A stretch of DNA of 37,795 nucleotides. Source: Deltaproteobacteria bacterium CG11_big_fil_rev_8_21_14_0_20_47_16 (GTDB lineage Bacteria; UBA10199; GCA-002796325; 1-14-0-20-47-16). The notes under the pieces were generated by a model. It did not search any database, had not been told where the DNA came from, and saw only the letters and a list, made by a program, of their open reading frames with translations. The stretch spans positions 15,153 to 52,947 of the forward strand of contig PCXA01000019.1 of the NCBI GenBank assembly GCA_002796325.1, given 5' to 3'. Shown here piece by piece: positions 3,211 through 37,593 of this stretch. A program made the position numbers and the translations under genes. How positions within the stretch are numbered: the stretch's first letter is position 1; each line of letters opens with the position of its first letter.

Positions 3211-3225
3211 AATCCTTAACCTCCC

Positions 3226-3480: not shown

Positions 3481-3492
3481 ACGTTTCGCTCC

Positions 3493-4146: not shown

Positions 4147-4148
4147 AT

Positions 4149-5068: not shown

Positions 5069-5079
5069 GCGTCATATCC

Positions 5080-5951: not shown

Positions 5952-5966
5952 GGTTCATTCCTCACT

Positions 5967-7076: not shown

Positions 7077-7106
7077 AGTGATCTCCTCTTAAAGTTTGTC
7101 TTCGAA

Positions 7107-7820: not shown

Positions 7821-7838
7821 GGTCTTCTCCTTTTGCTG

Positions 7839-8363: not shown

Positions 8364-9170
8364 GGCAAGCTCCTCATTGTTCTTGATAATTTTTTTGGGA
8401 ATGGATGCCTGGGCGGCGATCGTTTGAAGATGTTGTGATTGCTGCACGGGCCGACCGTCGTCGCCGATCTGTTTGGCGAATTCATCGGCCCCTTGCCAGA
8501 CGAGGGAAATTTCCCAGAACTTGTCGATCTTGGTGACGATGATCCGCACCGTCTCGCCCTCGATTTCCTCACCGAGATGATCGAAGAATGTGCCCGTTTC
8601 CATGAGCGCGGGATGACTCGGCTTCCATTCGAAGCTGACGGTGACGCTGGCGGAGTGGATGGCCCCCTGAAGGACGCCGCGGACCGTCATGGGGTCCTTG
8701 ACCGTGTCCAGTTTGAGAATGGCATTGATGCCGGAAGGAAAACCGGCTGTGGTTTCATCCCAGTGGGATGATTCCACGCGACCGACCCAATTGTTCACGC
8801 TGGTGTTGTGATCCTTGAAAACCGTCTGTCCGTTTAATTTGGAGACGGAGGCCTTGAGCATTTTCTCGTCCGTGAAATCGATGGGACGATCGGCCAGCAC
8901 GGTGGCTGACAAAGCCCTGAAGGTCGCGAATATGAAATCGTTCTCTGCCGGATCGACGCCATCCGTGGGTTGCAATGAAACGTCGCCCGATTCCTCGGCG
9001 AGATGCTCATGGGCAATCTTTTCGGCTTGATCGGGATTTTTCTTCGGATTTGAATTCTGGTTCTGGAGACAGTTTGGTCGGATAGATCCCACGAAAGTCA
9101 TAGACAAGCCCAGAGGCTTGCGACTTTTCCAGTTCGTGTTCGCCAGACTGATCTGTTGGTTCGTCAACAT
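7839..9170 (-). CDS. Prohead maturation protease with C-terminal scaffold domain
   Basis: A 443-residue protein. Residues about 65-215 resemble U35/S78-type prohead proteases: His in DHNTSVNNWVGRVES (about 121), Ser in GAIHSASVTVSFEW (173-175), and FWEISLVWQGADEFAK after it. Residues about 270-443 form a helical, coiled-coil scaffold (a run with EELESKVRDLE and LEDERKESIRLYRL) followed by RCAKCGG, a single CxxC. The protease would cut scaffold and capsid during maturation; the scaffold templates shell assembly. AGAAGGA precedes the ATG at 9170. The portal gene ends 96 bases upstream. Fusion of protease and scaffold in one frame with an internal start is known from lambda (C/Nu3); here the internal start is also visible (see the 7839-8363 entry). 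Confidence 0.82.
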   Translation of the reverse strand: MLTNQQISLANTNWKSRKPLGLSMTFVGSIRPNCLQNQNSNPKKNPDQAEKIAHEHLAEESGDVSLQPTDGVDPAENDFIFATFRALSATVLADRPIDFTDEKMLKASVSKLNGQTVFKDHNTSVNNWVGRVESSHWDETTAGFPSGINAILKLDTVKDPMTVRGVLQGAIHSASVTVSFEWKPSHPALMETGTFFDHLGEEIEGETVRIIVTKIDKFWEISLVWQGADEFAKQIGDDGRPVQQSQHLQTIAAQASIPKKIIKNNEELAMHPLNKLLKETFGVEVTEKNFTEILNQHFETKSEECLQKSRQEVVGLQSQIAQGQHRIEELESKVRDLEPQATLGRQYLEDERKESIRLYRLAKGDAVSEAILKTLEKADLDIAQAFKQEFQKEVETRFPNRCAKCGGTDIRRQSSQIPQDQGQPAQGPLSRKALEHVKDIHAL

Positions 9171-9266
9171 AGATATCCTTCTCTCGATATCTATGCTTCG
9201 AGCGTAAACTCCCGGTCACTTTCGTGATCCCGAAAAATATTTTTTCTTCAGAATCTTTCATAGGCG

Positions 9267-11744: not shown

Positions 11745-11778
11745 GCGGGTGATTACGTGAAAGGCGGGAATTTCAGCT

Positions 11779-11849
11779 TTTTCGGATCCGAAAACGAAAC
11801 TTTTCAGACGAGGCCAAAATTGCGGCTTGATGACGGCCGGTTACCGGCC
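11779..11849 (+). repeat. Two perfect palindromes in the divergent gap before the portal gene
   Basis: The 171-base gap between the portal start (11744) and the small plus-strand ORF (11916) holds a perfect 16-base palindrome, TTTTCGGATCCGAAAA (11779-11794), and a GC-rich hairpin GGCCGG-TTA-CCGGCC (11835-11849). Neither is followed by a T run on the minus strand, so they look less like terminators than like operator or structure elements of the divergent promoters. What binds them, if anything, is unknown. Confidence 0.5.
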
Positions 11850-11915
11850 TTGAAATCGGCAGGCGGCAACCCTTATCGAGTTGCTATGTTTTGCGTAAGC
11901 CGGTGTACTGGGGTC

Positions 11916-12140
11916 ATGAAAACAACGATCAAAAAAGTGAAAAGCATTTCCTACGACGTCGATAAACTCGGCGGGATTCAGCTGCTCGGAAACGATGTAC
12001 TGACGGCGGTTGCCCGGGGCGAGATGGATCTCAACCAGATCGCGATCAATCATCTGGCCGGTCGCGGGCTTGATGAAAATGGAGCATGGATCGGATTCGA
12101 CAAGGCGAAGGAACGGTTTATCGAGGAAGCCCGCCGATAA
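11916..12140 (+). CDS. Small conserved hypothetical protein, plus strand inside the prophage
   Basis: A 74-residue protein starting MKTTIKKVKSISYDVDKLG at 11916, the only likely plus-strand gene in the prophage. It contains NDVLTAVARGEMDLNQIAINHLAGRGLDENGAWIGFDKA, a layout I associate with small proteins found on plasmids and phages in many proteobacteria ('arG.ldln.ia...La.RGld..G.WvGf..A'), of no known function. A longer reading from 11736 would run through the two palindromes and is less likely. No strong ribosome site is seen. Its 3' end overlaps the end of the toxin gene abiEii (12118-12978) on the other strand by 23 bases, so the two transcripts converge. Confidence 0.6.
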   Translation: MKTTIKKVKSISYDVDKLGGIQLLGNDVLTAVARGEMDLNQIAINHLAGRGLDENGAWIGFDKAKERFIEEARR

Positions 12141-12978
12141 ACGCCTCGACCTGCGCGAAGGTTTTCGCGATGTCGCCATCAAGTCCGCATTCCTTCGCTA
12201 TCTTGCCAAATTTTGACTCCCAGTTTGCGGGAGGCGGACTGATCGCCTTCGGAATCCCGTGTGTTCCACGGTATTCGAATATCTTGCCGATCGCCGTCCT
12301 CAATACATCCGTTTTCAATGTTTTGGTCCCGATCAACAAGGCCAAGTCGATCAGGTCTTTCACCCTGGAATTTTCGGATTCCTCTCTCGGCAACGTGTAG
12401 GCGTGGAGTTTTTCCGCGAATTGCTGCTCTCTGGAAATGGCAGGGAACGGCAGTGTTTCAATGCCGGCAAACTCCAGCCAATCCTGACTGCCGATCTCCT
12501 CGACCGGATCCAACACGAGGGAGGAAACCACCACATCCATCGGGAAACGGATGAACAGTCGGCCGTCGAGATGCGCTTCGATGGGGAAACGGGAACCGCC
12601 ATAGGGCACGGCCTCCAAGTCCAAGGTCGGATTTCCGACAAGAAAAACGAAGAAATCGTTCAAATCCTCGCGGGCAGCCTTCTGCAATAGGTCGAAAATT
12701 TCCAAATCCTGCGCTTCCCGTTTGGCCAGCGTTTTTGCTCGGAGTACCAGGTCGATGTCCTTCGTGGTCCGGGCTTTTTGTATCCGTAACTCCATGGAGT
12801 ACCCGCCCTTGAGGAAGAGATTGCCGGGATGGGACTTGAAGAGGCGGCAGAGCAGACGATCGAACGCGACCTGCCGGCGCAATTTGTGCAAATCGACACC
12901 ATGCTTCTTGGAAAAATTATTGAGACGTCCCTCCAAGGCTGTTCTGAATGCCGTCGGTGTCCCGTATTTCCTGCTCAT
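12118..12978 (-). CDS. abiEii: AbiEii/AbiGii-type nucleotidyltransferase toxin
   Basis: A 286-residue protein of the type IV toxin-antitoxin/abortive-infection family. Residues 57-65 (KGGYSMELR) and 73-76 (KDID) match the nucleotidyltransferase motif I (GG..L...) with the DxD metal-binding aspartates; further on, FAEKLHAYTLP (186-196) and SRVKDLIDLALL (203-214) match the conserved Lys and the R-x-KDL-x-DL motif of the AbiEii group. The family is thought to transfer nucleotides to an RNA target, stopping growth during phage attack. The start overlaps the antitoxin stop by four bases, so the pair is coupled. All expected key residues are present, so it may be active. It occupies the place where a large terminase is expected. 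Confidence 0.85.
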   Translation of the reverse strand: MSRKYGTPTAFRTALEGRLNNFSKKHGVDLHKLRRQVAFDRLLCRLFKSHPGNLFLKGGYSMELRIQKARTTKDIDLVLRAKTLAKREAQDLEIFDLLQKAAREDLNDFFVFLVGNPTLDLEAVPYGGSRFPIEAHLDGRLFIRFPMDVVVSSLVLDPVEEIGSQDWLEFAGIETLPFPAISREQQFAEKLHAYTLPREESENSRVKDLIDLALLIGTKTLKTDVLRTAIGKIFEYRGTHGIPKAISPPPANWESKFGKIAKECGLDGDIAKTFAQVEAFIGGLPR

Positions 12979-13586
12979 GAACGCCGCTCCTTCCTGTCTT
13001 TCTCGATAAAGAATTTTGCAGCTCCGGGAACCCGGTCGACGATTGCCAACGCATCCTTGCGGGTGAGCAAACCGCGCTGCATGAATTCAGCGACCGCCTG
13101 CTGGACCAAGTGGTCCTCAATCTGTCCGGCGGCGATGATATCCAAGACCGTCCGTGGTGGCGTCGTGACCCGAAATCCTCTCATCGTCCGGCAATCCCCT
13201 TCATGGAGGTCTTCCCGATGAAGCACGAGCACAGCGGGAATCTCGCTGTTCCGACGGAATTTTTTCGGAACCGTCATGTGAAGTTTGGCGGACATGACAT
13301 CACTGGCGTCATAAATACTGAGGGCGGTATCGAAGGAATAAACCCCTTGGGGTTCGCCTTTCCGATTGCAGGACCAGAGCGACCAAAGAACATACTGGTC
13401 ATCCGGTTGATTCGGGAAATTGGACAAGCGATAGATCCCGCGATGCTCTCGAGTCCAATGTCCATGGTTGACGTGATACGGATGATTATTGATCCAAACC
13501 CCCGCCGCGATGGCCTGACGAGACGTAAAATAGCCCTGCTGGGCCGATGCTATTTCAAAAAGTCGCTTTTCTGGAGATTGGGTCAT
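12975..13586 (-). CDS. abiEi: AbiEi-type antitoxin/transcriptional repressor
   Basis: A 203-residue protein partnering the toxin. The N-terminus (FEIASAQQGYFTSRQAIAAGV, then WTREHRGIYRLSNFP) is the winged-helix domain of AbiEi proteins with the conserved 'GyFt..qa..aG' and 'RGvYRL' elements; the C-terminal two thirds (VYSFDTALSIYDASD, TVPKKFRR, RVTTPPRTVLDIIAAGQ, VAEFMQRGLLTRKDAL) match the AbiEi antitoxin domain. The start MTQSPEKR at 13586 is chosen because a GAGGT ribosome site lies seven bases upstream; a longer reading (from 13679) would translate through the operator and promoter. AbiEi proteins of known systems repress their own promoter by binding inverted repeats, and such repeats are present here. 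Confidence 0.85.
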   Translation of the reverse strand: MTQSPEKRLFEIASAQQGYFTSRQAIAAGVWINNHPYHVNHGHWTREHRGIYRLSNFPNQPDDQYVLWSLWSCNRKGEPQGVYSFDTALSIYDASDVMSAKLHMTVPKKFRRNSEIPAVLVLHREDLHEGDCRTMRGFRVTTPPRTVLDIIAAGQIEDHLVQQAVAEFMQRGLLTRKDALAIVDRVPGAAKFFIEKDRKERRS

Positions 13587-13588
13587 TG

Positions 13589-13671
13589 CACATACCTCAT
13601 AATAATTATGAGTATTGTGCAAACTAATCCATATTGCAAGCACATATACCTTAATTATTATGAGGTATGTG
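13589..13671 (-). promoter_or_regulatory. abiE promoter with palindromic operator
   Basis: A perfect 20-base inverted repeat (arms 13589-13608 and 13652-13671, based on ACCTCATAAT) brackets the likely promoter. The inner arm is also half of a 17-base palindrome CTCATAAT-A-ATTATGAG (13596-13612). On the minus strand, TTGCAA (13634-13639) and AATACT (13611-13616), 17 bases apart, are candidate -35 and -10 boxes lying between the arms, and the antitoxin's GAGGT ribosome site lies in the downstream arm. Binding of AbiEi to paired inverted repeats is established for characterised abiE operons; that these repeats serve it here is inference. Confidence 0.7.
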
Positions 13672-13711
13672 TTATTCAAGGGGCCTGTTTTTCTATAACT
13701 ATTTGAAATCT

Positions 13712-14017
13712 TTACTTATTGCTTCCACTCATCCGATCCAGATACTCCAAGGCGATCTGAGGATCGTCCTTGAGGGCTTTGAATATGGTCTGCCGGGCCA
13801 AAAGCTGGGGCCGTTGTTTGAGGATTTCCCGGCGGTCTTTGAAAACCGGGTCGGTCTTCAAGTGTTCCTGAAAAACCTGCAGGGTGATCCCCGCAAAACA
13901 ACAGGCCTCGGCATCGCTGCAGCCGAGCGAAAAGGCGTCCTCGAGTCTGCGAAGGCAATCCTCGCTCAACGTGCCGATCTTCGGCGGTTCGGGTTTGGGC
14001 TCAGTCTTTTTCGGCAT
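13712..14017 (-). CDS. Small-terminase-like DNA packaging protein
   Basis: A 101-residue protein, start MPKKTEPKPEPPK at 14017 after GGAG (spacer seven bases). A reading from 14071 would lie entirely inside the end of the methylase gene and is unlikely. After a Lys/Pro-rich lead, residues about 18-60 (LRRLEDAFSLGCSDAEACCFAGITLQVFQEHLKTDP) fit the helix-turn-helix of small terminase subunits ('A...G.sd.eAc..agIs..t...'). The remainder (FKDRREILKQRPQLLARQTIFKALK, then IALEYLDRMSG) is helical and fits the oligomerisation region. The small subunit recognises phage DNA and loads the motor subunit. It overlaps the methylase gene end by 17 bases. Confidence 0.7.
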   Translation of the reverse strand: MPKKTEPKPEPPKIGTLSEDCLRRLEDAFSLGCSDAEACCFAGITLQVFQEHLKTDPVFKDRREILKQRPQLLARQTIFKALKDDPQIALEYLDRMSGSNK

Positions 14018-15251
14018 GAATACGCTCCGCTTTCTTTCCCGTATAATTTTCCCAGCGGGTGACAATGACATCGCAATAGATCGGATCCAGTTCCACGAGC
14101 CGCGCCTTGCGGCCGGTTTTCTCGCAGGCGATCAGCGTGGTTCCCGAACCACCGAAAAGGTCGAGGACGATCCCTCCGCGCTTGCAGGAGTTTTCGACGG
14201 TTCGCACCACCAATTCGACCGGCTTCTGATTCGGGTGAAAAGCACGATCCTGTTTTTGTCCCTTGTCATCCTTCCGACCCGCGAATGAATTGAACGATGG
14301 GAATTCGAAGACATTGGGATGATTCTTCGGACCGTAAAATTCGGGATGGCCCTTGGCGATGTAGAGGATCGGTTCGTACTTCCAGGTATAGTGGCCGAAG
14401 TTCATCGCCTGCACGTCTTTCAACCAGATCAGCGTATTGCGATAATCCCAGCCAGCCTCAATGGCGCAGGTGAGGAATTCAAGGACGTTCGCTTCGGCGT
14501 AGCAAACATAGGCGGGAGCGTTGGCGGAACAGTTCGCGAAAGCGTTTCGGTAAACCTTTTCGAGAAAGCCCCGGAAGTCTTTCTGGTTGTCTCCCATGAT
14601 CTTTCTGCCGAAGGTATCCTCGTAATTCACGTTGTACGGAGGGTCGGTGAAAATCATGCCGGCCTGTTCGCCATTCAGAAAGGCTTTGAGCAACCCTTCA
14701 TCCGTGCTGTCGCCGCAGTGGAGGCGATGATCCCCCAGAATCAAAAGGTCACCGGGCTGCGTGATAGCCTTATCGGGAGGCTCCGGAACGGCATCCTCCT
14801 CGGCACCGGTAAGACTGTTTTCTTTTTCATAGCCGATCAGATCTTTCAATTCATCATAGTCGAAGCCCGTCAGTTCGATCGGATACTCGCCGATGTCGAC
14901 GTCGACGATCACGTCATGGAGTAGCTGAAGATTCCATTCCCCCTGGATCTTGTTCAGGGCGAGATTCAGCATCTTCTCTTTAGTGAGAGGGAGATCGACT
15001 ACGACCACCTTCGTCGATTTGATGCCTATGAATTCGAGTACTTTGAAGCGCTGGTGTCCGCCGACAATGTTGCCGGTTTGCTTATTCCAGACGATCGGCT
15101 CAACAAGCGAGAATTCCAGGATGGATTTTTTGAGCCGTTCCAATTGCTCGTCGGAAATCTGTCTCGGGTTATAGGGACAGGGATTCATCTCCGAGAGTTT
15201 TTTACTTACGAGGACCATGTCCATGTTCAATCTTTCGTTTGCTTCATCCAT
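14001..15251 (-). CDS. ParB-like nuclease domain fused to beta-class DNA methylase (N4-cytosine/N6-adenine)
   Basis: A 416-residue fusion. Residues about 15-110 are a ParB/Srx-like domain (NPCPYNPRQISDEQLERLKKS, then GNIVGGHQRFKVL with GGHQR at 64-68). Residues about 165-410 are an amino-methyltransferase: catalytic DPPY at 203-206 precedes the SAM-binding DLFGGSGTT at 364-372, the motif order of the beta class; AFHPNQKPVELV (338-347) is the usual lead-in to motif I. It methylates DNA, which can shield the phage from restriction. AGAGGAGG lies six bases before the ATG. It overlaps the end of the cytosine methylase gene by eight bases. Phage ParB-methylase fusions of this kind are widespread. 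The specificity is unknown. Confidence 0.88.
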   Translation of the reverse strand: MDEANERLNMDMVLVSKKLSEMNPCPYNPRQISDEQLERLKKSILEFSLVEPIVWNKQTGNIVGGHQRFKVLEFIGIKSTKVVVVDLPLTKEKMLNLALNKIQGEWNLQLLHDVIVDVDIGEYPIELTGFDYDELKDLIGYEKENSLTGAEEDAVPEPPDKAITQPGDLLILGDHRLHCGDSTDEGLLKAFLNGEQAGMIFTDPPYNVNYEDTFGRKIMGDNQKDFRGFLEKVYRNAFANCSANAPAYVCYAEANVLEFLTCAIEAGWDYRNTLIWLKDVQAMNFGHYTWKYEPILYIAKGHPEFYGPKNHPNVFEFPSFNSFAGRKDDKGQKQDRAFHPNQKPVELVVRTVENSCKRGGIVLDLFGGSGTTLIACEKTGRKARLVELDPIYCDVIVTRWENYTGKKAERIHAEKD

Positions 15252-15996
15252 CGTGTGCCTCCTCTACGATTGCCTTGCCGATCACTTCGATAACCTGCGG
15301 AACGACCGCGTTTCCGAGGCAGGTAAGCTGGTGAATCCGGTCGGGAATCCCATCAGCCACTCCACAAATCTTGGGTGCGGATACAGGCCATCCGTCGGCC
15401 CATTGCGAAGCACCTCCCGCAGGTTGCCGCGACATTTCGGCGAGCCTTTGAACCTCTCGGTAGAAGCCCCCTTGGCATCCGAGACGATCGGCGTCGGGTA
15501 CCATTCTCTTGGTCGCGAAGATCCAGATCCGTTCACGCCTATGGGGAGCGCCCACGGCCGACGCCGGTATGCATTCCCATTCGACATCGTACCCGAGCGC
15601 GGCCAGGTCTCTGAGAATTCGTCCGAAGTACCGTCCAGATTCAGTTGAAAGGATCCCCGGCACGTTTTCAGCCAGGACCCATCGGGGCTCAAGCTCGCGA
15701 ATAATTCGGGCGAATTCTCCCCACAGGTCTCGCGCATCGTCGGAGCCTTTTCGCATTCCGGCGAAACTGTGGGGCTGACAGGGGAAGCCGCCGCAAACAA
15801 GCTCGACGGGTTCGAGGTTATGTCGGCCGCAATCCCTGACATCCCGGTGGCGGGCGACGTGGGGCCAGTGTTTTTCGAGAATTCCGGTCGCATAGTCATT
15901 GATCTCCACCTGCCACAGGCATTTCATGCCGGCCCTTTCCAGGCCCAGATCGAAACCGCCGATGCCAGCGAATAGCGAACCGAACGTGATCGTCAT
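15244..15996 (-). CDS. C5-cytosine DNA methyltransferase
   Basis: A 250-residue enzyme that transfers a methyl group to carbon 5 of cytosine. Motif I is FGSLFAGIGGFDLGLERAG at residues 5-23, motif IV GGFPCQPHS has the catalytic Cys at 73, motif VI ENV is at 110-112, motif VIII GAPHRRERIW at 149-158, and motifs IX/X (LGNAVVPQVIEVIGKAIV) close the protein. It is shorter than typical Dcm (over 400 residues) because the target-recognition region is only about 60 residues, which is common in phage-borne enzymes. The ribosome site before ATG 15996 is weak. It is the first gene of the minus-strand run, next to the prophage border. No partner endonuclease is visible, so it looks like an orphan methylase. 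Confidence 0.9.
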   Translation of the reverse strand: MTITFGSLFAGIGGFDLGLERAGMKCLWQVEINDYATGILEKHWPHVARHRDVRDCGRHNLEPVELVCGGFPCQPHSFAGMRKGSDDARDLWGEFARIIRELEPRWVLAENVPGILSTESGRYFGRILRDLAALGYDVEWECIPASAVGAPHRRERIWIFATKRMVPDADRLGCQGGFYREVQRLAEMSRQPAGGASQWADGWPVSAPKICGVADGIPDRIHQLTCLGNAVVPQVIEVIGKAIVEEAHDG

Positions 15997-27475: not shown

Positions 27476-30181
27476 GTGAGCGTCGCATTACATCCATTTC
27501 AATGTTCAACCCCGTTGTCACCTGCGGCGGCCCCTTTACTTTGTGAGTCTCAACCGTCTGCAGCTCATTATCAAAACGAATTAAATCAAATTGAATCACG
27601 TCGGCAATACGCTGTTGGTGATACACAATCCATGGTCGCGCTAGATTTGTATGAGGCTATGGTACACCTGTCAGATCCTGAAGGTTTCATGCCCAAGGTC
27701 ACAGGTCTTTTGAACCACGCCAAGAGCGGGCTTTTACAATTACCTGTAGGCAGTTCCCAACAATTATTATTGCAACAAGCCAACGTGGCAGAAGCCCGCT
27801 ACTATGTCAGATTGGCGAGCCAAAGCCGTGATACGAGCTCTGCACAAGACCATGTGCGCCATGGTATTGCCGCCATCACACCCGTTTTGAATGCTATTAC
27901 TGCTGCTGAGACCAGTTCAAAGGTAGTGGAGGATTCACAGGCCCGTTTATGGGTGGATGCACTCATGTTGCGCCAAAGCTTGGCGCAGTTGGAGCGTATT
28001 CATGACATGGATGTACATGATTCCTGGATGGCTACACGTGACACCGAAATTTGTGCGGCACGTTCATTGATTTCTGAGTTACCTGAAGGGGACCGTGCAA
28101 GTCGAATGGCCGAACTCACACAACTTCATGCCCGCACGTTATTGATTTCACATGAATACGCCGAGGCAATGCGCCTGAATCCATCGCTCAATGAAAATGA
28201 TGATGCTGGCTTTTTATCCAGAGTCCAATCCGCTGCCATGGAAGCCGCAGCACAGTCGGACCGCTTTGGTGGCTGGGCGTCATTTAGTGCATCACTAGCA
28301 GGCTGTTTTATTGGAACCAAGATTGCGGCCACTACAGGCGCAGCCGCAGGTGCAGGCGTTGGATCCATTGTGCCAGTAGCGGGTACCGGTGCGGGAGGAG
28401 CAGCAGGAGGTACTGTTGGCGCGGTTGGTGGTTGTGCCACAGGTGCCGTGGGTGGATTTTTGTTACTGCGCAGTGCTGCAGCGTTATCGGCTCCACAAGT
28501 CTGGGATGCTTACCAAACGGGGTACACCGCTGAAGATTGGCAAAGCGCTGCATTCAACACCGCTGCATTGACTGCTGAAGGGGCGTTGTCCGCCTGGGGC
28601 GCAACAGGTGTAGCGCAAGGTGGCAAACAAATTGCGAGAGTTTTTGTTGAAGACTTGCCGATCGTCGGACGCGCATTACTCAATTTACCTGCGCGTATGG
28701 CCGCATTGAAAGTAGCCGATTTGGCGCCGCGTATTGCCTTACCCAAGTTATCCCATCTCATAAAACCTGCTACTGAAACTGTCGCATCCCCGTGGCTTAG
28801 CATGAGCGGTGATGTGAGCGCTGCGCGTATTGCCAAAGCGCTTGGCTATGCAGCTTTTTATGCAATGACAGGAATTATTACGATACCCACAGCTGCGCAG
28901 GCCAATCCCAATGCCAGCAAAGGGGTTTCACCGTGGTCAGACCCTGTTAGTGAAGTTCTGGCACCCATCGGCTTGGTTGCGTCAAACCTTGTTGTTGCCC
29001 GTCTACTCAGGGCCCCGCATTTATTAGTCCAAGGTTTTGGCTTGGCCTACTATGGATTATGGCGCTGGGTGGATTATCGCGGTGGAAATGAGGCTGCACC
29101 ATTTGAGGCTGCCAGTAAAATTGCAGTAGGTGGTGCAATTTGTACATTTTTAGTTAAAAATCCGTTGAGTGAAAACATCAGATTGGATGGACTTGGCACA
29201 GTTATGGGCACGCTAATCTCAACTTATCCTTGGATGACCTCTGCAATTGAAGCTGGTAATGCAAAGGGTGAAGGGGTGATGTTGCCTATCCTCATTGGGC
29301 ACGCGTTTGTTTTTGTTCATAAGGCTTCGTTTGCCTTGGACTTTAAGCTCATTAAGCCATTTTTTGAGCGTACGCCATTCTTGCGCGCTTTCTCGGATAT
29401 GGCGCGTGGCGATGTTATAACAGGACCTATTTTTGATGTGTTTCGACGCGTTGGGTTTCCATTACATCGTATTAATCTGTTGGGCTATCAGCGCTTTTTC
29501 TGGCTCTCCAACTTTGTTTGCATTACCTCGGCACTAGAGGTCTTAGGCCAATCAATTGGTGCTTCAATGGATGATAAATATGGCTCAATCATGGGACCTT
29601 GGCGCAAGCGCACAGCCGAACAAATGTTGGGCTGGAGTCCGTTCCGAACAGCAGCAATTATGGCACTAGACTTTGATACTGTGGGTGCGCGTATCCTTGC
29701 TGCAGTATGGTTTGGTATTGAAGATACAATTCTCAATAAGCATCACAAGATTTTCAGTCACCAACGCCGATGGGTTTCTGATTTTGGTGCGTTATTGGCA
29801 ACAACTCCCTCATGGCCGGAGTGGACTAAATTTTTTGAAGGAGCCATGATGAAGATGACCTATTTAAATGGCAATGAGTTGGATGTGGATTTTGATGATT
29901 TATATGAAGATATGCGTGATGCTAAGTTTAAGCTCAATCCCGAACAACTCAAAATGATTACCGATAAATTCAGAGATTTTGAGACGATCACTCGCCAAGA
30001 TCAACGCATCTGTCTCTTCCTGCTGGCGGCGATGGCCAAGGTTGCTCATGACCAAAACACGCTACTCGATCCAAAGCTTCGGCCATATTATGAGCAATAC
30101 CTCCCCAAACTTAAGCTACCCAAACCCGTGGAAGAAACCCCCATCCGCCAAATCCGCGACCAAATTAATGATTGGGAGTAA
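27476..30181 (+). CDS. Large unrecognised protein with Gly/Ala-rich membrane segment
   Basis: A 901-residue protein starting with GTG at 27476, five bases after AGGAG. No family was recognised. Residues 1-250 are mostly helical with repeated Gln/Ala/Leu pairs (LDLYEAMVHL, QQLLLQQANVAEARYYVRL). Residues about 265-340 are a long Gly/Ala-rich hydrophobic stretch with small-residue repeats (TTGAAAGAGVGS, GAGGAAGGTVGAVGG) like glycine-zipper membrane segments. Residues about 455-540 hold more hydrophobic segments (AAFYAMTGIITIPTAAQA, EVLAPIGLVASNLVVA). The C-terminal 300 residues contain many aromatics (FWLSNFVCIT, WRKRTAEQMLGWSPF) and end in a charged helical region. There is no N-terminal signal peptide. 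It stands alone between the nucleoside transporter and histone genes. Confidence 0.75.
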   Translation: MSVALHPFQCSTPLSPAAAPLLCESQPSAAHYQNELNQIESRRQYAVGDTQSMVALDLYEAMVHLSDPEGFMPKVTGLLNHAKSGLLQLPVGSSQQLLLQQANVAEARYYVRLASQSRDTSSAQDHVRHGIAAITPVLNAITAAETSSKVVEDSQARLWVDALMLRQSLAQLERIHDMDVHDSWMATRDTEICAARSLISELPEGDRASRMAELTQLHARTLLISHEYAEAMRLNPSLNENDDAGFLSRVQSAAMEAAAQSDRFGGWASFSASLAGCFIGTKIAATTGAAAGAGVGSIVPVAGTGAGGAAGGTVGAVGGCATGAVGGFLLLRSAAALSAPQVWDAYQTGYTAEDWQSAAFNTAALTAEGALSAWGATGVAQGGKQIARVFVEDLPIVGRALLNLPARMAALKVADLAPRIALPKLSHLIKPATETVASPWLSMSGDVSAARIAKALGYAAFYAMTGIITIPTAAQANPNASKGVSPWSDPVSEVLAPIGLVASNLVVARLLRAPHLLVQGFGLAYYGLWRWVDYRGGNEAAPFEAASKIAVGGAICTFLVKNPLSENIRLDGLGTVMGTLISTYPWMTSAIEAGNAKGEGVMLPILIGHAFVFVHKASFALDFKLIKPFFERTPFLRAFSDMARGDVITGPIFDVFRRVGFPLHRINLLGYQRFFWLSNFVCITSALEVLGQSIGASMDDKYGSIMGPWRKRTAEQMLGWSPFRTAAIMALDFDTVGARILAAVWFGIEDTILNKHHKIFSHQRRWVSDFGALLATTPSWPEWTKFFEGAMMKMTYLNGNELDVDFDDLYEDMRDAKFKLNPEQLKMITDKFRDFETITRQDQRICLFLLAAMAKVAHDQNTLLDPKLRPYYEQYLPKLKLPKPVEETPIRQIRDQINDWE

Positions 30182-30253: not shown

Positions 30254-30308
30254 GCGCCTCCACGTTAGGTTTAAATCAACTGAAATGCCAATTCCAAAGG
30301 AGGAAGTT

Positions 30309-30500
30309 ATGGCCAAGGCAAGTAAGAAGGAAATCGCAGTCGTTGTTTCAAAGGTAAAAGATTACGTGAAGAGCAAGGGTTGCATGACATCCGCCGAAGC
30401 AATCCCAACATTGTCCGACAAGATCTACTGCTTGATCGACAAGGCCATTGAACGCACAAAAGCCAACGGCCGTCAGACCATTAAGCCACAAGATTTATAA
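30309..30500 (+). CDS. Bacterial histone (single histone fold, HBb/Bd0055-like)
   Basis: A 63-residue protein, start fixed by GGAGG five bases before ATG 30309. Pattern: helix 1 in KKEIAVVVSKVKDYVKSKG (about 6-24), a long central helix in LSDKIYCLIDKAIERTKANG (about 35-54), then RQTIKPQDL (55-63). The last element matches the archaeal histone ending 'AGRKTIKAEDI', with the Arg-Thr pair and the acidic residue that holds it. Layout and size match the short bacterial histones, best known from Bdellovibrio bacteriovorus (HBb, Bd0055), an abundant nucleoid protein that binds and bends DNA. It is flanked by a strong ribosome site and its own terminator, as for an abundant protein. Functional role here is inferred from family. 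Confidence 0.85.
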   Translation: MAKASKKEIAVVVSKVKDYVKSKGCMTSAEAIPTLSDKIYCLIDKAIERTKANGRQTIKPQDL

Positions 30501-30524
30501 AATTGTTTTTGTCTTGAATTAAGA

Positions 30525-30560
30525 CCCTCGGTAGCCGATAGCTGCCGAGGGTTTTCTTTT
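30525..30560 (+). terminator. Terminator hairpin of the histone gene that carries the ccmE ribosome site
   Basis: CCCTCGGTAGC and GCTGCCGAGGG form an 11-pair stem (one G-U pair) with a four-base CGAT loop, followed by TTTTCTTTT. It can terminate the histone transcript. The T tract ends right at the ccmE start (ATG 30561), and the only ribosome-site-like sequence for ccmE, GAGGG, is the last part of the 3' arm. Readthrough transcripts would thus have the ccmE ribosome site paired away. Confidence 0.75.
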
Positions 30561-30950
30561 ATGAATCGATACATTGTTGGCACAATTTTGATAGTAGCTG
30601 GGCTCGTCTACATGGGCGTCACCGTCTTTCGCTCGTCGATGCAGTACTATGTTACGGTAAGCGAGTTTCGCAGTAATGAATCCAAATACGATGGTAAGAC
30701 ACTTAAGGTTGCAGGCAAAGTAAAAGAGGGTAGTGTCCAAAAGACAGTTGATGCGGGCATGCCTGTTTATACGTTCACGGTCGTCGATGCGGGCCAAGAG
30801 TTGCAGGTGGTTTATCGCGGCTTGGTGCCGGATACCTTTAAAGCAGGCTCCGATGTGGTGGCCACAGGCCACATGCAGGGGGATCACTTTGAAGCGAATC
30901 ACATTCTTGCCAAATGCGCATCTAAATATGAGGCCAAGGTCCAATCATGA
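30561..30950 (+). CDS. ccmE: CcmE heme chaperone with CxxxY heme-binding motif
   Basis: A 129-residue periplasmic heme chaperone of cytochrome c maturation, with an N-terminal membrane anchor (YIVGTILIVAGLVYMGVTVF). The beta-barrel part contains YDGKTLKVAGKVKEGSV, YTFTVVDAGQELQVVYRGLVPDTFKAGSDVVATGHM, the conserved CcmE pattern ('vy.G.lpDlF..g..vva.G'). The heme-binding segment is LAKCASKY: Cys119 and Tyr123 replace the usual His...Tyr (HxxxY, as in LAKHDENY of E. coli). CxxxY variants are known from Desulfovibrio and some archaea and define 'system I*'. The stop overlaps the ccmF start (ATGA). The start codon follows a T tract, see the terminator at 30525. Confidence 0.9.
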   Translation: MNRYIVGTILIVAGLVYMGVTVFRSSMQYYVTVSEFRSNESKYDGKTLKVAGKVKEGSVQKTVDAGMPVYTFTVVDAGQELQVVYRGLVPDTFKAGSDVVATGHMQGDHFEANHILAKCASKYEAKVQS

Positions 30951-32818
30951 TTCCTGAAATTGGCAGTGCCATGATCACACTTGTTATTCCCGCCAGCATC
31001 TTTAGCCTGGTCGCTGGGCTTTTGGGTGGACGCATGGCCAATGCCGCATGGCAAACCACACGCCTCATCATGATGATGCTTGTGGGTGCTTCCATACTCT
31101 TAATTCTGGCCTTCATCGCAAACGATTATTCCATTGCTTACGTTGCCCATTATTCCAACCGATCACTACCGTTCTTTTATAAAATTACCGGGTTGTGGGC
31201 AGGTCTCGATGGATCATTGCTTTTTTGGGTGACGATTTTGTCAGTGTTGGGGTTTGTCATGATGCACCGCTTGCAAAAGCAGGCACCTGAGTTAGTAGCC
31301 GTTGCCAATGCGAGCGTTATGGGTGTAATCTTCTTTTTCGCACTCATGCTTTTGTTCCCAGCCAATCCGTTTACGCGACTTGTGACAACACCCGCCGACG
31401 GCACAGGGCTCAATCCACTTTTACAAAATGAATATATGGTTATTCATCCACCCAGTCTTTACATGGGCTATGTGAGCGCGGCGATTCCATTTGCGATTGC
31501 AATGGCCATGATGTGGCGCCGCAAGGCGACGGATATTGATTCGCAAATCCTGCGCCCATGGTTGTATCTGTGCTGGACATTCTTAACATTGGGCAACTTG
31601 TTGGGCATGCACTGGGCCTATGTGGAGCTGGGTTGGGGCGGCTTTTGGGCCTGGGACCCCGTGGAAAATGCCGCGGTCATGCCGTGGTTTGTCCTGACCG
31701 GACTACTCCACAGTATGATTGTGCAAGAGCGCCGTGGTCAATTCCGTATGTGGAACATGGTGCTGGTTGTGCTCGCATTCATGCTCACACTGTTTGGAAC
31801 GTATCTAACACGTAGTGGTATCGTGCAATCGGTACACGCGTTTTCCAATTCAACATTGGGGCCTTATTTTATTTCACTCATGATTGTGACAGCGCTTGTG
31901 GGATTCGGCAGTATCGTTGCCCATCGCAAATCACTCCAGCCTAGGGCACTTTTCGAATCTGTGGTGTCAAAAGAGGGCGCGTATCTTTTGTGTACAATTT
32001 TAATGGTTGCAGCAACGGTTGCCATCATCTGGGGCACCATGATGCCAACAATCACAGAAGCAATCTCTGGTGACCGTGTGACCGTTGGTCCACCGTACTT
32101 TAATCGGATGATGGCGCCCATCGGCTTATTCGTCTTACTCCTGATGGGTGTTGGTCCCGTTGCCAAGTGGACGCATGATGAGTTGTTGCCACTACTCAAG
32201 CGGATTTGGTTGCCGACTTTTGTAGCGGGATGCGTTGCATTGATTGCATGGTATAAGGGTCTATTGAATCCCTACATGTATAGCGCCGCAATAATGGTGG
32301 CGTTTGCGTTTACCACGACTGTCCATAAGCTTTTTACTGGTAAGCGGCGCAATCCCAGACGCGAAGGTGCGTATATTGTGCACCTTGGTTTTGTCATCAT
32401 GTTCCTTGGCTTTGCAGGAGCTGCTTATCAAGGAGAGCGTTCTGTTGAATTGCATGCCGGTGAAACAGCCAGCTTCCGTGGCTATGAATTTGAAATGAAG
32501 GGGATTAACTACTGGCGCGATCGCCATAAAGAAACGATCGAAGCTGTCGTTAATGTGACTTATGCGGGTAAGGAAATTGATGAACTGCGGCCTTCACACT
32601 TTTTATATGTCGGCTCCGAGCAACCCACAAGTGAAGTCGATATTCATCGGCGGTTTGGTGAGGACGTCTATTTGATTATGGGTGGTTTTGATTACGACAA
32701 AAAATCAGCAGAGTTTAAAATTATGATTAACCCGCTGGTGAATTTAATTTGGCTCGGCGGTGCCATCATGGGGCTCGGCATTGGCTGGATGTGGTGGCCA
32801 CGGAGGAAATATGCGTAA
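30947..32818 (+). CDS. ccmF: CcmF cytochrome c heme lyase subunit
   Basis: A 623-residue, many-pass membrane protein that joins heme to apocytochrome c. It has the heme-binding WWD motif WGGFWAWDPVENAA (230-243), histidine motif IHPPSLYMGY (166-175), 'MHWAYVELGW' leading into WWD, and later THLTRSG-like GTYLTRSGIVQSVHAF and the C-terminal periplasmic domain (ELHAGETASFRGYEFEMKGI). The length is in the normal range. Its ATG overlaps the ccmE stop; its stop overlaps the start of the next gene, so the operon is tightly coupled. Confidence 0.95.
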   Translation: MIPEIGSAMITLVIPASIFSLVAGLLGGRMANAAWQTTRLIMMMLVGASILLILAFIANDYSIAYVAHYSNRSLPFFYKITGLWAGLDGSLLFWVTILSVLGFVMMHRLQKQAPELVAVANASVMGVIFFFALMLLFPANPFTRLVTTPADGTGLNPLLQNEYMVIHPPSLYMGYVSAAIPFAIAMAMMWRRKATDIDSQILRPWLYLCWTFLTLGNLLGMHWAYVELGWGGFWAWDPVENAAVMPWFVLTGLLHSMIVQERRGQFRMWNMVLVVLAFMLTLFGTYLTRSGIVQSVHAFSNSTLGPYFISLMIVTALVGFGSIVAHRKSLQPRALFESVVSKEGAYLLCTILMVAATVAIIWGTMMPTITEAISGDRVTVGPPYFNRMMAPIGLFVLLLMGVGPVAKWTHDELLPLLKRIWLPTFVAGCVALIAWYKGLLNPYMYSAAIMVAFAFTTTVHKLFTGKRRNPRREGAYIVHLGFVIMFLGFAGAAYQGERSVELHAGETASFRGYEFEMKGINYWRDRHKETIEAVVNVTYAGKEIDELRPSHFLYVGSEQPTSEVDIHRRFGEDVYLIMGGFDYDKKSAEFKIMINPLVNLIWLGGAIMGLGIGWMWWPRRKYA

Positions 32819-33341
32819 ACTATTTGTATTACTCACCTTAATTTTTGCATCGCACGTTGCACATGCGCAATCTATGGCGGATCAGCTTAAAAATTCGCCG
32901 CTGGGCAAAATTCCCGTGGGTGTTTTGACGGGCGTGCTAACGAAAGAGGGCAAGCCGCTTGCAAACTATCCACTCGTCATTCAGGTACAGCAATCTGGTC
33001 AAACGGTGTTGACGCTACCCAAAAACACAGACGCCAACGGCACGTTTGAATTTAAAAATATATTCCGCGCACCAGAATTTTCTTATTCCGTATTTTCCGA
33101 AGACGCCGGAAAAGTGTACCGCTATGGCCCCTTTGCTATGAAGGATGCCAAACTTAAAATTAGCTTCGCCATTAGCGCAAAGACCGAAATTGGTGAAATG
33201 CCGTCTCAGCCCAAAGCTGCTGCTTCTGAACCTGTCCCAGAAAAGGGGGAGTGGGTTTGGTATCAAGTGGTTGCACTTCTAATGTTGGGCGCAGTCTTGG
33301 GTGCATTGGGCACTGTGATCGTCAATCGACGGAGAAAATAA
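32811..33341 (+). CDS. Unknown secreted, C-terminally membrane-anchored protein inside the ccm operon
   Basis: A 176-residue protein starting at 32811, overlapping the ccmF stop. Signal peptide MRKLFVLLTLIFASHVAHA (cleavage before Q20); residues about 35-115 form a beta-sandwich (GVLTKEGKPLANYPLVIQVQ, NTDANGTFEFKNIF) of carboxypeptidase-regulatory type; a Pro/Ala/Glu linker; one membrane helix at about 150-170 ending in RRRK, so the domain faces the periplasm. It sits where ccmH/ccmG-type genes are often found but has no CxxC, so it cannot be a thiol protein. A similar gene may exist in other 'system I*' operons; I do not recognise a name. Its stop overlaps the ccmA start (TAATG). Confidence 0.75.
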   Translation: MRKLFVLLTLIFASHVAHAQSMADQLKNSPLGKIPVGVLTGVLTKEGKPLANYPLVIQVQQSGQTVLTLPKNTDANGTFEFKNIFRAPEFSYSVFSEDAGKVYRYGPFAMKDAKLKISFAISAKTEIGEMPSQPKAAASEPVPEKGEWVWYQVVALLMLGAVLGALGTVIVNRRRK

Positions 33342-33931
33342 TGCTCAGCTTGCAAAACATTGGCCATCACTATCAGCACTGGGTGTTGAAAGACGTGTCG
33401 ATGAAGTTGCGTGTGGGGCAACGGTGTATTCTTACAGGTGCTAATGGGTCGGGCAAAACCACACTACTCAAAATTTGTGCCGGTCTTCTTACGTCTACGC
33501 AGGGCAAGCGCATCATCGATCGCGATACAAAAGTGTCATGCGTTCTCGCATCTTCCTTTTTATATGCTGAACTCACCGTTCTTGAAAATCTCAAACTCTA
33601 TGCCACTCTTCAAAATCAAAAATCCGATGTCGTGGATTGGGCAATTCACACCTGGGGATTAAAATCATTTATGCAGCAGTCTGTCGCCACGCTTTCGTTG
33701 GGGCAGACGCAACGTGCGTCACTCGCACGCGCCACATTTTCCAGTCCCAATTTCTTGTGCCTCGATGAACCAAGTAATGCGCTTGATGCGGAAGGCCTGG
33801 GATTGCTAGAGGCCTATCTTCAGTCTTTTGATGGTCTGGCACTGATTGCCACACACGATCCAGGCAGTTTTGAACCACTCGCCAACACTCATTTGCGATT
33901 GCATGACGATCATCGATTGGAGCTGCGATGA
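33341..33931 (+). CDS. ccmA: CcmA heme exporter ATP-binding protein
   Basis: A 196-residue ABC ATPase that works with CcmB and CcmC to load heme on CcmE. Walker A GANGSGKTT (33-41), signature LSLGQTQRASLARA (118-131), Walker B FLCLDEPSNALD (138-149), H-loop THD (171-173). The signature has SLGQ in place of SGGQ, as in many CcmA. The start ATG at 33341 overlaps the previous stop; a reading starting at 33251 runs inside that gene and is not used. Stop and next start overlap by four bases. Confidence 0.93.
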   Translation: MLSLQNIGHHYQHWVLKDVSMKLRVGQRCILTGANGSGKTTLLKICAGLLTSTQGKRIIDRDTKVSCVLASSFLYAELTVLENLKLYATLQNQKSDVVDWAIHTWGLKSFMQQSVATLSLGQTQRASLARATFSSPNFLCLDEPSNALDAEGLGLLEAYLQSFDGLALIATHDPGSFEPLANTHLRLHDDHRLELR

Positions 33932-34587
33932 TTTTTCAGCTGCTCAAATTAGAATGGCGCTTAAGTCGTGGCTCACTTGCAGTACTCATGAAGTTGGGCT
34001 TCTTTGCATTGCTACTTACAATTTTGTTTTACATTGCACTCGCGCAAGGCATGGGCGAGGCCGCGCGTTATGCCACACAAGTGGTGTGGATCATCTTAGT
34101 CATGGGTGGCATCTTGCAGTGCAACCGCAGCTTTGATTCTGAACGGAACGGCAATGTACTAGACGGCTTGCGCATGATCCCTGGCGCAATCTCAGCATTA
34201 TATATCGCCAAGTGGGTGGCAAACCTTGTCACACTTTGGATTTTACTGGGGCTACTCAGTGTTATGATCATGATATTTTTCAATCTTGCTGCAGATCAAC
34301 TTAACGCCGCATTTTTTATTCCAGCTGCTCTTGGCCTTGTGGGTCTGACAGCAATCGGTACACTTTTTTCCGGAATGGTACGCATGCATCGCGCGCGTGA
34401 CATGGTATTGCCTGTGCTTCTCATTCCCATCATTCTGCCACTTGCCCTGATGGTATCGCGATGGTATGCGGCAATTTCAATTGGTGAGGGAATGTGGGAC
34501 GTCGCTTGGGGCCACTTGGTCGTGGCAACAGACATTTTATTCTTTGCGAGTGCCTGGCTGCTATTCCCAAGTGTGGTGAAGGACTAA
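33928..34587 (+). CDS. ccmB: CcmB heme exporter permease
   Basis: A 219-residue inner-membrane protein with about six hydrophobic segments. 'LLKLEWRLSRGS' at the start, 'VWIILVMGGILQCNRSFDSERNGNVLDGLRMIPG' (the 'l....rlf..D...G.ld.ll..P' element of CcmB) and 'LPVLLIPIILPLALM' later fit the CcmB family. Stop overlaps the ccmC start. Placement between ccmA and ccmC is the classical order. Confidence 0.9.
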   Translation: MIFQLLKLEWRLSRGSLAVLMKLGFFALLLTILFYIALAQGMGEAARYATQVVWIILVMGGILQCNRSFDSERNGNVLDGLRMIPGAISALYIAKWVANLVTLWILLGLLSVMIMIFFNLAADQLNAAFFIPAALGLVGLTAIGTLFSGMVRMHRARDMVLPVLLIPIILPLALMVSRWYAAISIGEGMWDVAWGHLVVATDILFFASAWLLFPSVVKD

Positions 34588-35213
34588 TGAAAAAAATAAT
34601 TTACTTATTTCTACTAATCGCACTTGCCGCCAGCGGCTACGCCATTTTCTTTTATGCGCCAGAAGAAGTCACCCAGGGCATTGTTCAAAAGATTTTCTAC
34701 ATTCATGTGCCATCTGCTTTTGCCATGTACGCCACACTCATCACGGGTGCTGCGCTCGGACTTGGGTATTTAATTCGCCGTGACGATGCACTTGATCAGT
34801 GGGCAGTGAGCTGTATGGAAGTGGCGCTACTTTTTTGTACGATTGTGCTTACCACGGGGCCCATCTGGGCCAAACCGATTTGGGGTGCCTGGTGGACGTG
34901 GGATGCGCGTCTCACATCCACATTCTTTTTGTGGCTCATTTTGATTGCCTACTTTTTGCTGCGCAAGGCGTTTACTGGTACAGAGGCCAAACGCTACTCC
35001 GCGATTCTGGCATTGATTGGCCTACTCGATGTGCCGATTATCATGTTTGCCGTCAAACTCTGGCGCGGAGCCCACCCATCGGTCTTGAGTGCGCGGGAGT
35101 ATCTGCCAAGCGAGATGCGCCAGGTATTTATCCTTTGCATACTAACAATTCAATTCTTGGCGTGGACATTGGTGATCATTCGCAAGTCGATAGAAGCCAA
35201 AAGGAGGGGATAA
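34587..35213 (+). CDS. ccmC: CcmC heme-handling protein
   Basis: A 208-residue, six-helix membrane protein that passes heme to CcmE. The WWD motif is WGAWWTWDARLT (99-110), with the flanking histidines H40 (FYIHVPSA) and H163 (WRGAHPS). The start ATG 34587 shares a base with the ccmB stop; a longer reading from 34494 is inside ccmB. The stop is followed directly by ccmD. Confidence 0.94.
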   Translation: MKKIIYLFLLIALAASGYAIFFYAPEEVTQGIVQKIFYIHVPSAFAMYATLITGAALGLGYLIRRDDALDQWAVSCMEVALLFCTIVLTTGPIWAKPIWGAWWTWDARLTSTFFLWLILIAYFLLRKAFTGTEAKRYSAILALIGLLDVPIIMFAVKLWRGAHPSVLSAREYLPSEMRQVFILCILTIQFLAWTLVIIRKSIEAKRRG

Positions 35214-35315
35214 GTGGACACCAGCACGTATTGCTTTGCAGGCTATGCCGTATTTGCAGTCCTAATTGCATTGTATGTAGGACGTTTGGTTTGGATTTCG
35301 ATCACTCATAAATAA
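35214..35315 (+). CDS. ccmD: CcmD-like small membrane protein
   Basis: A 33-residue protein starting with GTG immediately after the ccmC stop, with AGGAGGGG six bases upstream. Sequence: a short polar N-terminus, then one membrane helix (GYAVFAVLIALYVGRLVW) and a short basic end (ISITHK). CcmD proteins are tiny single-helix proteins that help release heme-loaded CcmE, and this is their standard place after ccmC. The call rests on position, size and topology. Confidence 0.7.
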   Translation: MDTSTYCFAGYAVFAVLIALYVGRLVWISITHK

Positions 35316-35424
35316 ATTTGTCACAAAGAGTTCACACACCTCCAGCCGCTTTCTCACTTGCACACCCATTTTAAATATGACAGATGGCAACGCAAGCTGA
35401 TCCCAACATTCTGGAGGAACTTCA

Positions 35425-36336
35425 ATGGCTGCCCCAACACTGAGTACGACTTACCCTCAAGTCTGGCATGTGCGCATTCCAGACCCAGCTTGTACCAAGC
35501 CACTGAGTCAGTGCCAAAGTGTAGCCATTCCGATCCAGGATCCACAGGTTCAAACCCAACTATGGAGTTATGACCTAAATGGAGATAACGTTTTGGACTG
35601 GCGGGATCTTGAAAAGAGCTATTCAGCAAATGGAGCTATTCACCAGCTTTCTGCACAATGGATTAGCGCTCAAAATGCAGTGGGCAGTGCCTCACTATTC
35701 AAAAGCGAAAAGGTAGTCATTGATTGGGCGCGTTTTGATATGGCCGTTCATGCAGCATACAACAGTGTTCAAGACGTTGATTCTCTACAGTCCCATCATG
35801 TCGATGAAGGTTTTTGGAATTCAGAACACCAATTCAATGCGAATGACTGGCAGACCCTCACACGAGTTTACGGCGCTAATGCGGAGTTACTCGTCTCTCA
35901 AATGCAAGATGCATACACAACCCTGTGGTCATTTACAAAGTCCGCAGGATTGTTTTCTAACGAGATTGTTAGCATCAAGGGAATAGCTGTAGATAGAAAG
36001 TATATTGTTGATCCGGCGCCATTGCCTGCCGGCATGAGACAAGAATTTACTGCTTTGCTGAATAGAATGTCCAAAATTGATGCCTTTTATGGTGCAAATT
36101 TGTTCATGTGCGTTGGCAAGAATTGCCCAGTTAATTCAACTTCAACTCGTCCCCTTGTCAATCACTCCCATAATGGTCAGATTTTGACATGTAGTCACTT
36201 AGAATCGACTGGCACCCCAGATCAACCTGAATGCTCAAGTTTGGTCACACCTCAACGGACATCGTACTCACACAATTTGACGTTCCCTAAGGGTGTTATT
36301 ACCGAGGCTTCAATCCCATATCCTGCTGCTCTGTAG
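35425..36336 (+). CDS. Hypothetical protein with EF-hand-like loop
   Basis: A 303-residue protein of no recognised family. Residues about 48-62 (SYDLNGDNVLDWRDLEK) fit a calcium-binding EF-hand/dockerin-type loop (DxNxDxxxDxxD). A second, weaker version may be EHQFNANDWQTL at about residue 135. The protein has no N-terminal signal peptide. It is rich in Ser, Asn and Gln, with several Cys in the first and last third. TGGAGGAA supplies the ribosome site. It stands downstream of the Ccm operon, but 109 bases of gap and no shared function suggest its own transcription. Confidence 0.65.
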   Translation: MAAPTLSTTYPQVWHVRIPDPACTKPLSQCQSVAIPIQDPQVQTQLWSYDLNGDNVLDWRDLEKSYSANGAIHQLSAQWISAQNAVGSASLFKSEKVVIDWARFDMAVHAAYNSVQDVDSLQSHHVDEGFWNSEHQFNANDWQTLTRVYGANAELLVSQMQDAYTTLWSFTKSAGLFSNEIVSIKGIAVDRKYIVDPAPLPAGMRQEFTALLNRMSKIDAFYGANLFMCVGKNCPVNSTSTRPLVNHSHNGQILTCSHLESTGTPDQPECSSLVTPQRTSYSHNLTFPKGVITEASIPYPAAL

Positions 36337-36341
36337 CAGCC

Positions 36342-37001
36342 CTACATCCGCCGCAATATGGAGCCAGCACGTCGACTCATGCGGTATCCCCGGCGCCCAA
36401 GTCTTTTGGGGTTGGGTAAGATTGATGCCAAAAATGCTGATTCACTGGCACTGAGCTTGGCTGCGGAGTGTTTGAAGTAATATTGTGAAGCTGCTTCGGC
36501 ACCGTATACCCCAGGTCCCCATTCCACGACGTTCAAATACAATTCCAAGATGCGCTGTTTGCTTAGTTCGCGCTCCAACTTGAGTGCGATCAAAAATTCT
36601 TTTAATTTGCGAAATGGATTTTTTGATTTGGAGAGATATAAATTACGGGCCAATTGTTGGGTTATCGTGCTGGCGCCACGCGCAAGCTTTTTCTTCTTCC
36701 AATCATAAATTGCTGCTCTTTTGATTGCTTCCCAGTTAAATCCTTCATGTTCGTAGAATTCATCATCCTCAGCAGCAATGACGGCGCGTTGAAGAGTGGG
36801 GCTGATTTTATTAAGAGGCACCCACTCATAACTAAATGGTGCTGTACTGGTCAGGAGCTGGCGATCCATGAAGGCCGTGGTGATTGGATTAACCGTTCGA
36901 AGTTCGGAAACGTTAGGAATGTTAAAGGTGTCGTAAAGCAATGCCACCCAGATCACACCCAAAATCACCAAAAAACCGATTTTGCGATTGCTCATTTTCA
37001 T
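36342..37001 (-). CDS. mtgA: Monofunctional peptidoglycan glycosyltransferase
   Basis: A 219-residue GT51 enzyme that polymerises lipid II into glycan strands. One N-terminal membrane anchor (IGFLVILGVIWVALLYD) is followed by the GT51 motifs: AAEDDEFYEHEG (76-87, catalytic Glu), GASTITQQLARNLYLS (109-124), RKLKEFLIALKLE (131-143), and ILELYLNVVEWGPGVYGAEAAS (151-172). There is no transpeptidase domain, and the length is that of MtgA. A second Met at residue 3 could be the start. It is divergent from dcd, with 37 bases between the start codons, and convergent with the EF-hand-like gene. Confidence 0.93.
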   Translation of the reverse strand: MKMSNRKIGFLVILGVIWVALLYDTFNIPNVSELRTVNPITTAFMDRQLLTSTAPFSYEWVPLNKISPTLQRAVIAAEDDEFYEHEGFNWEAIKRAAIYDWKKKKLARGASTITQQLARNLYLSKSKNPFRKLKEFLIALKLERELSKQRILELYLNVVEWGPGVYGAEAASQYYFKHSAAKLSASESAFLASILPNPKRLGRRGYRMSRRAGSILRRM

Positions 37002-37038
37002 TGCAAAGAATCATCCCCACGGTTATCCATTCCACACT

Positions 37039-37593
37039 ATGCCAAAACCTGACCACTGGATATGCCGAATGGCGATCGAACACAAGATGATTGAGCCATT
37101 TGCACCCGAGCAAGTACGTGACGGTGGAATCTCCTATGGCACATCCTCATATGGCTATGATTTTCGTGTCACCGAACGGTTTTTGATTCCCAAGCCTACC
37201 CAAGACGGTGTCTTGGACCCCAAAGCCGTTCGCGAGGATATGTTTACTGAATTTATTGGTCCGCATTATGATCTGCCTGCACGCAGCTTTTGTATGGCGC
37301 GCACAGTTGAGTATTTTAGGATTCCGCGTGACATTTTGACAATTGCCACTGGGAAATCCACTTACTCGCGTTGTGGTGTCACGTTGTATATCACGCCATT
37401 TGAACCTGAATGGGAAGGGCATGCCACAATCACAGTTGTTAATTCTAATAATTGCCCTGTACGTATTTATGCCAACGAGGGTATTGGCCAATTGATTTTT
37501 TTGGAAGCATCTGAAGTGTGTGCAACATCATATGCAGACAAGAAGGGCAAGTATCAGGCCCAAAAGGACATTACACATGCCAAATCAGGATAA
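37039..37593 (+). CDS. dcd: dCTP deaminase
   Basis: A 184-residue enzyme converting dCTP to dUTP for dTTP synthesis. Start MPKPDHWICRMAIEHKMIEPF at 37039 matches the usual N-terminus ('...dr.I...a....mI.Pf'). Conserved elements: ISYGTSSYGYDFRV, FCMARTVEYFRIPRDI, GKSTYSRCGVTLYITPFEPEWEGHATI, IYANEGIGQLIFLE. The GKSTYxRCG motif is the substrate/metal-linked core of Dcd trimers. No clear ribosome site precedes the ATG. Its end overlaps the DUF2203 gene by 17 bases. Confidence 0.93.
   Translation: MPKPDHWICRMAIEHKMIEPFAPEQVRDGGISYGTSSYGYDFRVTERFLIPKPTQDGVLDPKAVREDMFTEFIGPHYDLPARSFCMARTVEYFRIPRDILTIATGKSTYSRCGVTLYITPFEPEWEGHATITVVNSNNCPVRIYANEGIGQLIFLEASEVCATSYADKKGKYQAQKDITHAKSG

Follow-up and report, generated by a model that had tools for sequence, protein, structure and literature searches.

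To our knowledge, both structure and function have been characterised for no more than two bacterial histones, namely HBb, which bends DNA, and HLp, which wraps it, and their hosts are distant bacteria. HBb of Bdellovibrio bacteriovorus bends DNA as a dimer (HBb work as cited in PMC11390915), and this species is described as possessing, besides its dimer histone, a second histone of the ZZ type (PMC11390915). HLp was found experimentally to form tetramers that wrap about 60 bp of DNA (PMC12701072), and the histone has been proposed as the main nucleoid protein in Leptospira (PMC12701072). As described in these sources, bacterial alpha3 histones of the face-to-face (FtF) type are tetramers carrying R48/N52, i.e., R49/N53 in HLp (PMC11390915, PMC12701072), and bacterial dimer histones lack the R48/N52 pair and carry RKT (PMC11390915); bacterial FtF histones are there reported chiefly from Spirochaetota, Planctomycetota, Bdellovibrionota and Myxococcota (PMC12701072, PMC11390915).

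The window, i.e., the whole stretch of 37,795 nucleotides analysed here, carries on its plus strand an open reading frame with an ATG at 30309 and a stop codon at 30498-30500, the product of which is a protein of 63 amino acids (MAKASKKEIAVVVSKVKDYVKSKGCMTSAEAIPTLSDKIYCLIDKAIERTKANGRQTIKPQDL) with a computed pI of 9.55 and net charge of +5.5. This establishes the following gene, flanked by two expression signals:

30299-30308, plus strand: Shine-Dalgarno GGAGG and spacer preceding the histone ATG (sequence)
30309-30500, plus strand: FtF-type alpha3 histone gene, 63 aa (ORF, phmmer, AlphaFold model, Foldseek, family alignment)
30521-30555, plus strand: Rho-independent terminator in the gap between the histone gene and ccmE (15-bp stem and T-rich tail)

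The 63-residue frame has exactly the coordinates given in the original prediction, which had also granted it a strong ribosome site and a terminator of its own; both are borne out, the former by a GGAGG core 5 nt before the ATG (AAAGGAGGAAGTT-ATG), the latter by a stem whose RNA fold reaches -28.2 kcal/mol with a z of -6.7, none of 200 shuffles being equally stable. GGAGG-like sites likewise precede most of the histone orthologues. Upstream starts at TTG 30225 and ATG 30285 were rejected as neither has a ribosome site, and a reverse-strand ORF at 30307-30459 was rejected as unsupported. No sigma-70-like promoter was found for the gene, the Rfam search of its upstream region gave no match, and when four upstream regions were aligned for a conserved regulatory element, the ribosome site alone was clearly conserved. 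Compared with two same-order orthologues, the gene shows a dN of 0.20-0.23 and a dS of 2.0-3.7, the latter being near saturation so that only the direction of the dN/dS signal is reliable, and third codon positions hold 31 of the 53-54 differences; judged from these codons, the gene is under purifying selection.

The encoded protein is a genuine single-histone-fold bacterial protein, as had been proposed from its RQTIKPQDL pattern. The AlphaFold monomer, computed from 29 aligned relatives (mean pLDDT of 86.4), adopts the histone fold, with helices alpha1 at about 13-22, alpha2 at about 31-52 and a short alpha3 at about 60-62; the model thus displays the shortened alpha2 and truncated alpha3 of alpha3 histones, with an rmsd to HLp/HBb of 0.7-1.0 Å, and the RxTxxxxD motif, i.e., the loop 2 RD clamp, is present as R55-Q-T57-IKPQ-D62. 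A phmmer search against solved structures puts HLp from Leptospira perolatii first (9QT0; E 3.2e-16, ungapped, 62 residues), followed by HBb of Bdellovibrio (E 2e-8) and the archaeal HTkC (E 1e-4). Foldseek likewise places HLp on top (9QT0/9QT1; target-normalised TM 0.95-0.96, rmsd 0.7-0.8 Å), then HBb (TM 0.84-0.89) and HTkC (TM 0.89-0.90), then archaeal and eukaryotic histones, the best matches being all histones rather than unrelated helical proteins. The comparison originally drawn with Bdellovibrio holds insofar as a short bacterial histone is concerned but not for the nearest relative: HLp is closer by sequence, model, residues and tree, and the Bdellovibrio histone is thus the second-closest kind. 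Generic histone models score below their cut-offs, namely Pfam CBFD_NFYB_HMF with 14.6 bits (cut-off 21.4) and NCBIfam archaea_histone with 14.7 (cut-off 50), and automatic annotation would therefore probably miss the gene; these sub-threshold matches were counted neither for nor against its identity.

Among histones, the window protein belongs to an already known family, i.e., the bacterial FtF alpha3 histones. It possesses R49, N53, R55, T57 and D62, the residues that mark tetrameric FtF alpha3 histones, and the dimer-dimer interface pair R49 and N53 is shared by every one of the 24 FtF orthologues in the phylum; in the 29-row alignment of relatives, S14, A46, R49, N53, R55, T57 and D62 are invariant. 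With the roles of DNA-contact and interface residues taken from HLp as described in PMC12701072, the DNA-contact positions S14, K15, K17, K21, T27 and T57 match HLp, the HLp contacts A13, G29 and T56 are replaced by V, A and Q, respectively, and two interface positions are changed, S52 to A and T61 to Q. In a tree of 54 histones, an FtF group including HLp splits from a dimer/ZZ-like group including HBb at 80/85 when all columns are used; without columns 49 and 53, this split stands at 99/93 with three long rows left out but at only 77/73 with all rows kept. The window histone lies in the HLp clade, i.e., together with known bacterial FtF histones. Since its best match is HLp and it bears the FtF residues and most of the HLp DNA contacts, it would most likely be a tetramer wrapping some 60 bp, and we consider it highly probable that the protein is an FtF histone assembling face to face and wrapping DNA as HLp does. 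By analogy with HLp, two monomers would form a head-to-tail histone dimer, and two such dimers would close face to face via R49, N53 and R55, giving a tetrameric ring, the positive rim of which (S14, K15, K17, K21, T27 and T57) would be wrapped by about 60 bp of DNA without sequence preference.

Downstream of the histone gene, the window comprises the following genes:

30561-36336, plus strand: ccmE-ccmF-orf193-ccmA-ccmB-ccmC-orf303, cytochrome c maturation (Pfam), not part of the histone unit
36342-37001, minus strand: mtgA-like transglycosylase (Pfam PF00912, synteny), about 5.8 kb from the histone
36982-37593 (start approximate), plus strand: dcd-like dCTP deaminase (Pfam PF22769, synteny)

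ccmE starts at 30561, just past the terminator, which makes the histone a unit separate from the ccm genes; co-transcription with them was considered and is unlikely given this terminator. The search for a ccm cluster beside the 23 other FtF loci found none (one weak ABC-ATPase match). Near the FtF histone, an mtgA-like gene is found in 14 genomes, including that of the window, and a dcd-like gene in 15, the usual order being the FtF histone, a convergent mtgA adjoining it directly or nearly so, and then dcd; dimer-type histone genes are devoid of this neighbourhood. The window retains the histone-mtgA-dcd order with the ccm cluster in between, which looks like an insertion or rearrangement particular to this lineage. 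The orthology of the gene is likewise established, and this neighbourhood, which is shared across families of the phylum, argues that the FtF histone is old there and vertically kept, not a stray acquisition. Within the ccm block, orf193 (32760-33341) shows weak DUF6795/Ig-like similarity, and the last ORF (35425-36336) encodes 303 aa. Directly upstream of the histone, a protein of 901 aa (27476-30181, plus strand) has glycine/alanine-rich, apparently membrane-spanning stretches and no Pfam match. In about 10-11 relatives, genes for a DnaJ-type chaperone and a thiolase, as named from their sequence, accompany the FtF histone-mtgA-dcd block, sitting 1-4 kb beyond dcd (L071, L069, L068 and other FtF loci).

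At its other end, the window harbours phage-like genes:

1024-15996, minus strand: phage-like region (family matches), comprising the six genes below
1024-3210, minus strand: tail sheath
4149-4631, minus strand: virion morphogenesis protein
5967-7076, minus strand: capsid-like protein
12118-12978, minus strand: AbiEii-type nucleotidyltransferase
14001-15251, minus strand: ParB-N/DNA methylase fusion
15244-15996, minus strand: C5-cytosine methylase

A phage origin of the histone was rejected, this region (about 1-16 kb) lying 14 kb off and the chromosomal neighbours being kept.

The genome to which the window belongs (1.95 Mb, 20 contigs, 99.75% complete, 0.07% contamination) encodes a second histone on another contig:

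G000:C14:17704-17895 (L059:5001-5192), plus strand in L059: second histone, 64 aa, HBb dimer type (sequence match, residues)

This second histone, likewise established here, is closer to HBb (E 3e-14) than to HLp (E 9e-7), lacks R49/N53 and carries RKTVMDRD, as in dimers of the HBb type, and its three helices are modelled in the same arrangement (pLDDT 86.5). By analogy with HBb, it should bend DNA as a dimer. A Peptidase_C26/glutamine amidotransferase gene directly follows it. The genome also encodes four proteins that pass the Pfam cut-off for the HU/IHF family, a family present in all 46 phylum genomes; the window histone, which would act beside both the HBb-type DNA-bending dimer and the HU/IHF-family proteins, is therefore not necessarily the main nucleoid protein.

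At least one histone match is found in 39 of the 46 phylum genomes. As judged from extracted ORFs and diagnostic residues, the FtF type occurs in 24 of them, including that of the window, with G013 and G041 as the most divergent calls; the dimer type occurs in 20, G002 being the least certain call, and a ZZ-like type in 7. FtF and dimer histones co-occur in at least nine genomes (G000, i.e., that of the window, G004, G007, G012, G014, G018, G019, G033 and G038), and absences are soft because many of the other genomes are incomplete. Longer histones of an MGRDF kind, related to the dimer type (L010:5344-6207, L102, L103 and L105), represent a third histone type within the phylum, and in L010 and L102 the N-terminal part is rich in Cys/His, as in ZZ histones. 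Outside the phylum, relatives are found in metagenome-assembled genomes (MAGs) labelled Deltaproteobacteria, Hydrogenedentota and Proteobacteria; eight genomes checked via such loci gave one histone match each, one of them (SKS1.bin41) being apparently the phylum member G027. In two Hydrogenedentota MAGs, FtF-like histones (L008:5950-6162 and L011:5962-6162) bear lysine-rich N-terminal tails (MAKKAAKKKAAKKG... and MAKKASKPAS...).

Two other readings of the window protein were weighed. It might be a bacterial dimer of the HBb kind, bending rather than wrapping DNA, as HBb is the next-best solved relative and nearly as close in fold; the protein, however, has RQT and not RKT in its L2 motif together with R49 and N53, a pair absent from bacterial dimers as these are described in PMC11390915, it groups with HLp in trees, and a different gene of the same genome is the one that fits HBb, which leaves such a dimer improbable. 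Elsewhere there are histone-fold proteins that play no part in organising DNA, and the genome is split over 20 contigs, so the protein could be conceived as acting on something other than chromatin, or its gene as an assembly contaminant. Against this stand the conserved DNA-contact residues, the orthologues with common neighbours in many related genomes and the completeness and low contamination of the assembly, and we give this reading hardly any credence.

A further alternative concerns the functional unit, which would be heteromeric if the two histones formed mixed dimers or mixed tetramers. Hetero-dimers are possible among archaeal histones, as described in PMC10627809, and both histone types do occur together in the genomes named above; yet many genomes, some of them incomplete, have one type without the other, the FtF and dimer genes lie on different contigs, and their interface residues differ. 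Mixed assembly as the working form is accordingly very unlikely. With the FtF tetramer kept as the preferred reading, and wrapping, bending and a division of labour carried over from HLp and HBb, members of this uncultured phylum may, as a tentative proposal that we hold somewhat less probable than its converse, possess a three-layer chromatin made of an FtF wrapper, a dimer bender and HU/IHF, acting together or at different times and possibly with mixed histone assemblies.

More interesting than this new family member is that a predicted DNA-wrapper and a predicted DNA-bender co-occur with HU. No bacterial genome with both an FtF and a dimer histone is described in the main texts of the sources cited above, the supplementary tables of which may list cases. 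Here, orthologues of HBb and HLp are found together, with HU/IHF, in a single small genome and at least eight of its relatives, and the cooperation of histone variants and classical nucleoid proteins thereby becomes directly testable with a single protein pair.

Respective to named histones, HTkC of Thermococcus kodakarensis (9F2C), an archaeal FtF histone, has the fold and R49 in common with the window histone, but shows only 34-36% identity in structural alignment, has E instead of N at position 53 of the present alignment and falls in the archaeal cluster. HBb (Bd0055; 8FVX, 8CMP, 9EZZ, 9F0E) shares the alpha3 fold, the short alpha2/alpha3 and RxTxxxxD, but lacks R49/N53, reads RKTVMARD and has one extra residue in loop 1. 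HLp (9QT0/9QT1/9QT2; PMC12701072) is of the same 63 aa and aligns ungapped at about 50% identity, with the tetramer and RD-clamp residues, the alpha1 lysines and the short alpha3 alike, but comes from a different lineage and differs at positions 13, 29, 52, 56 and 61. While Leptospira is described as having one FtF histone and lacking HU (PMC12701072), the genome of the window adds to its FtF histone a dimer-type histone and HU/IHF proteins.
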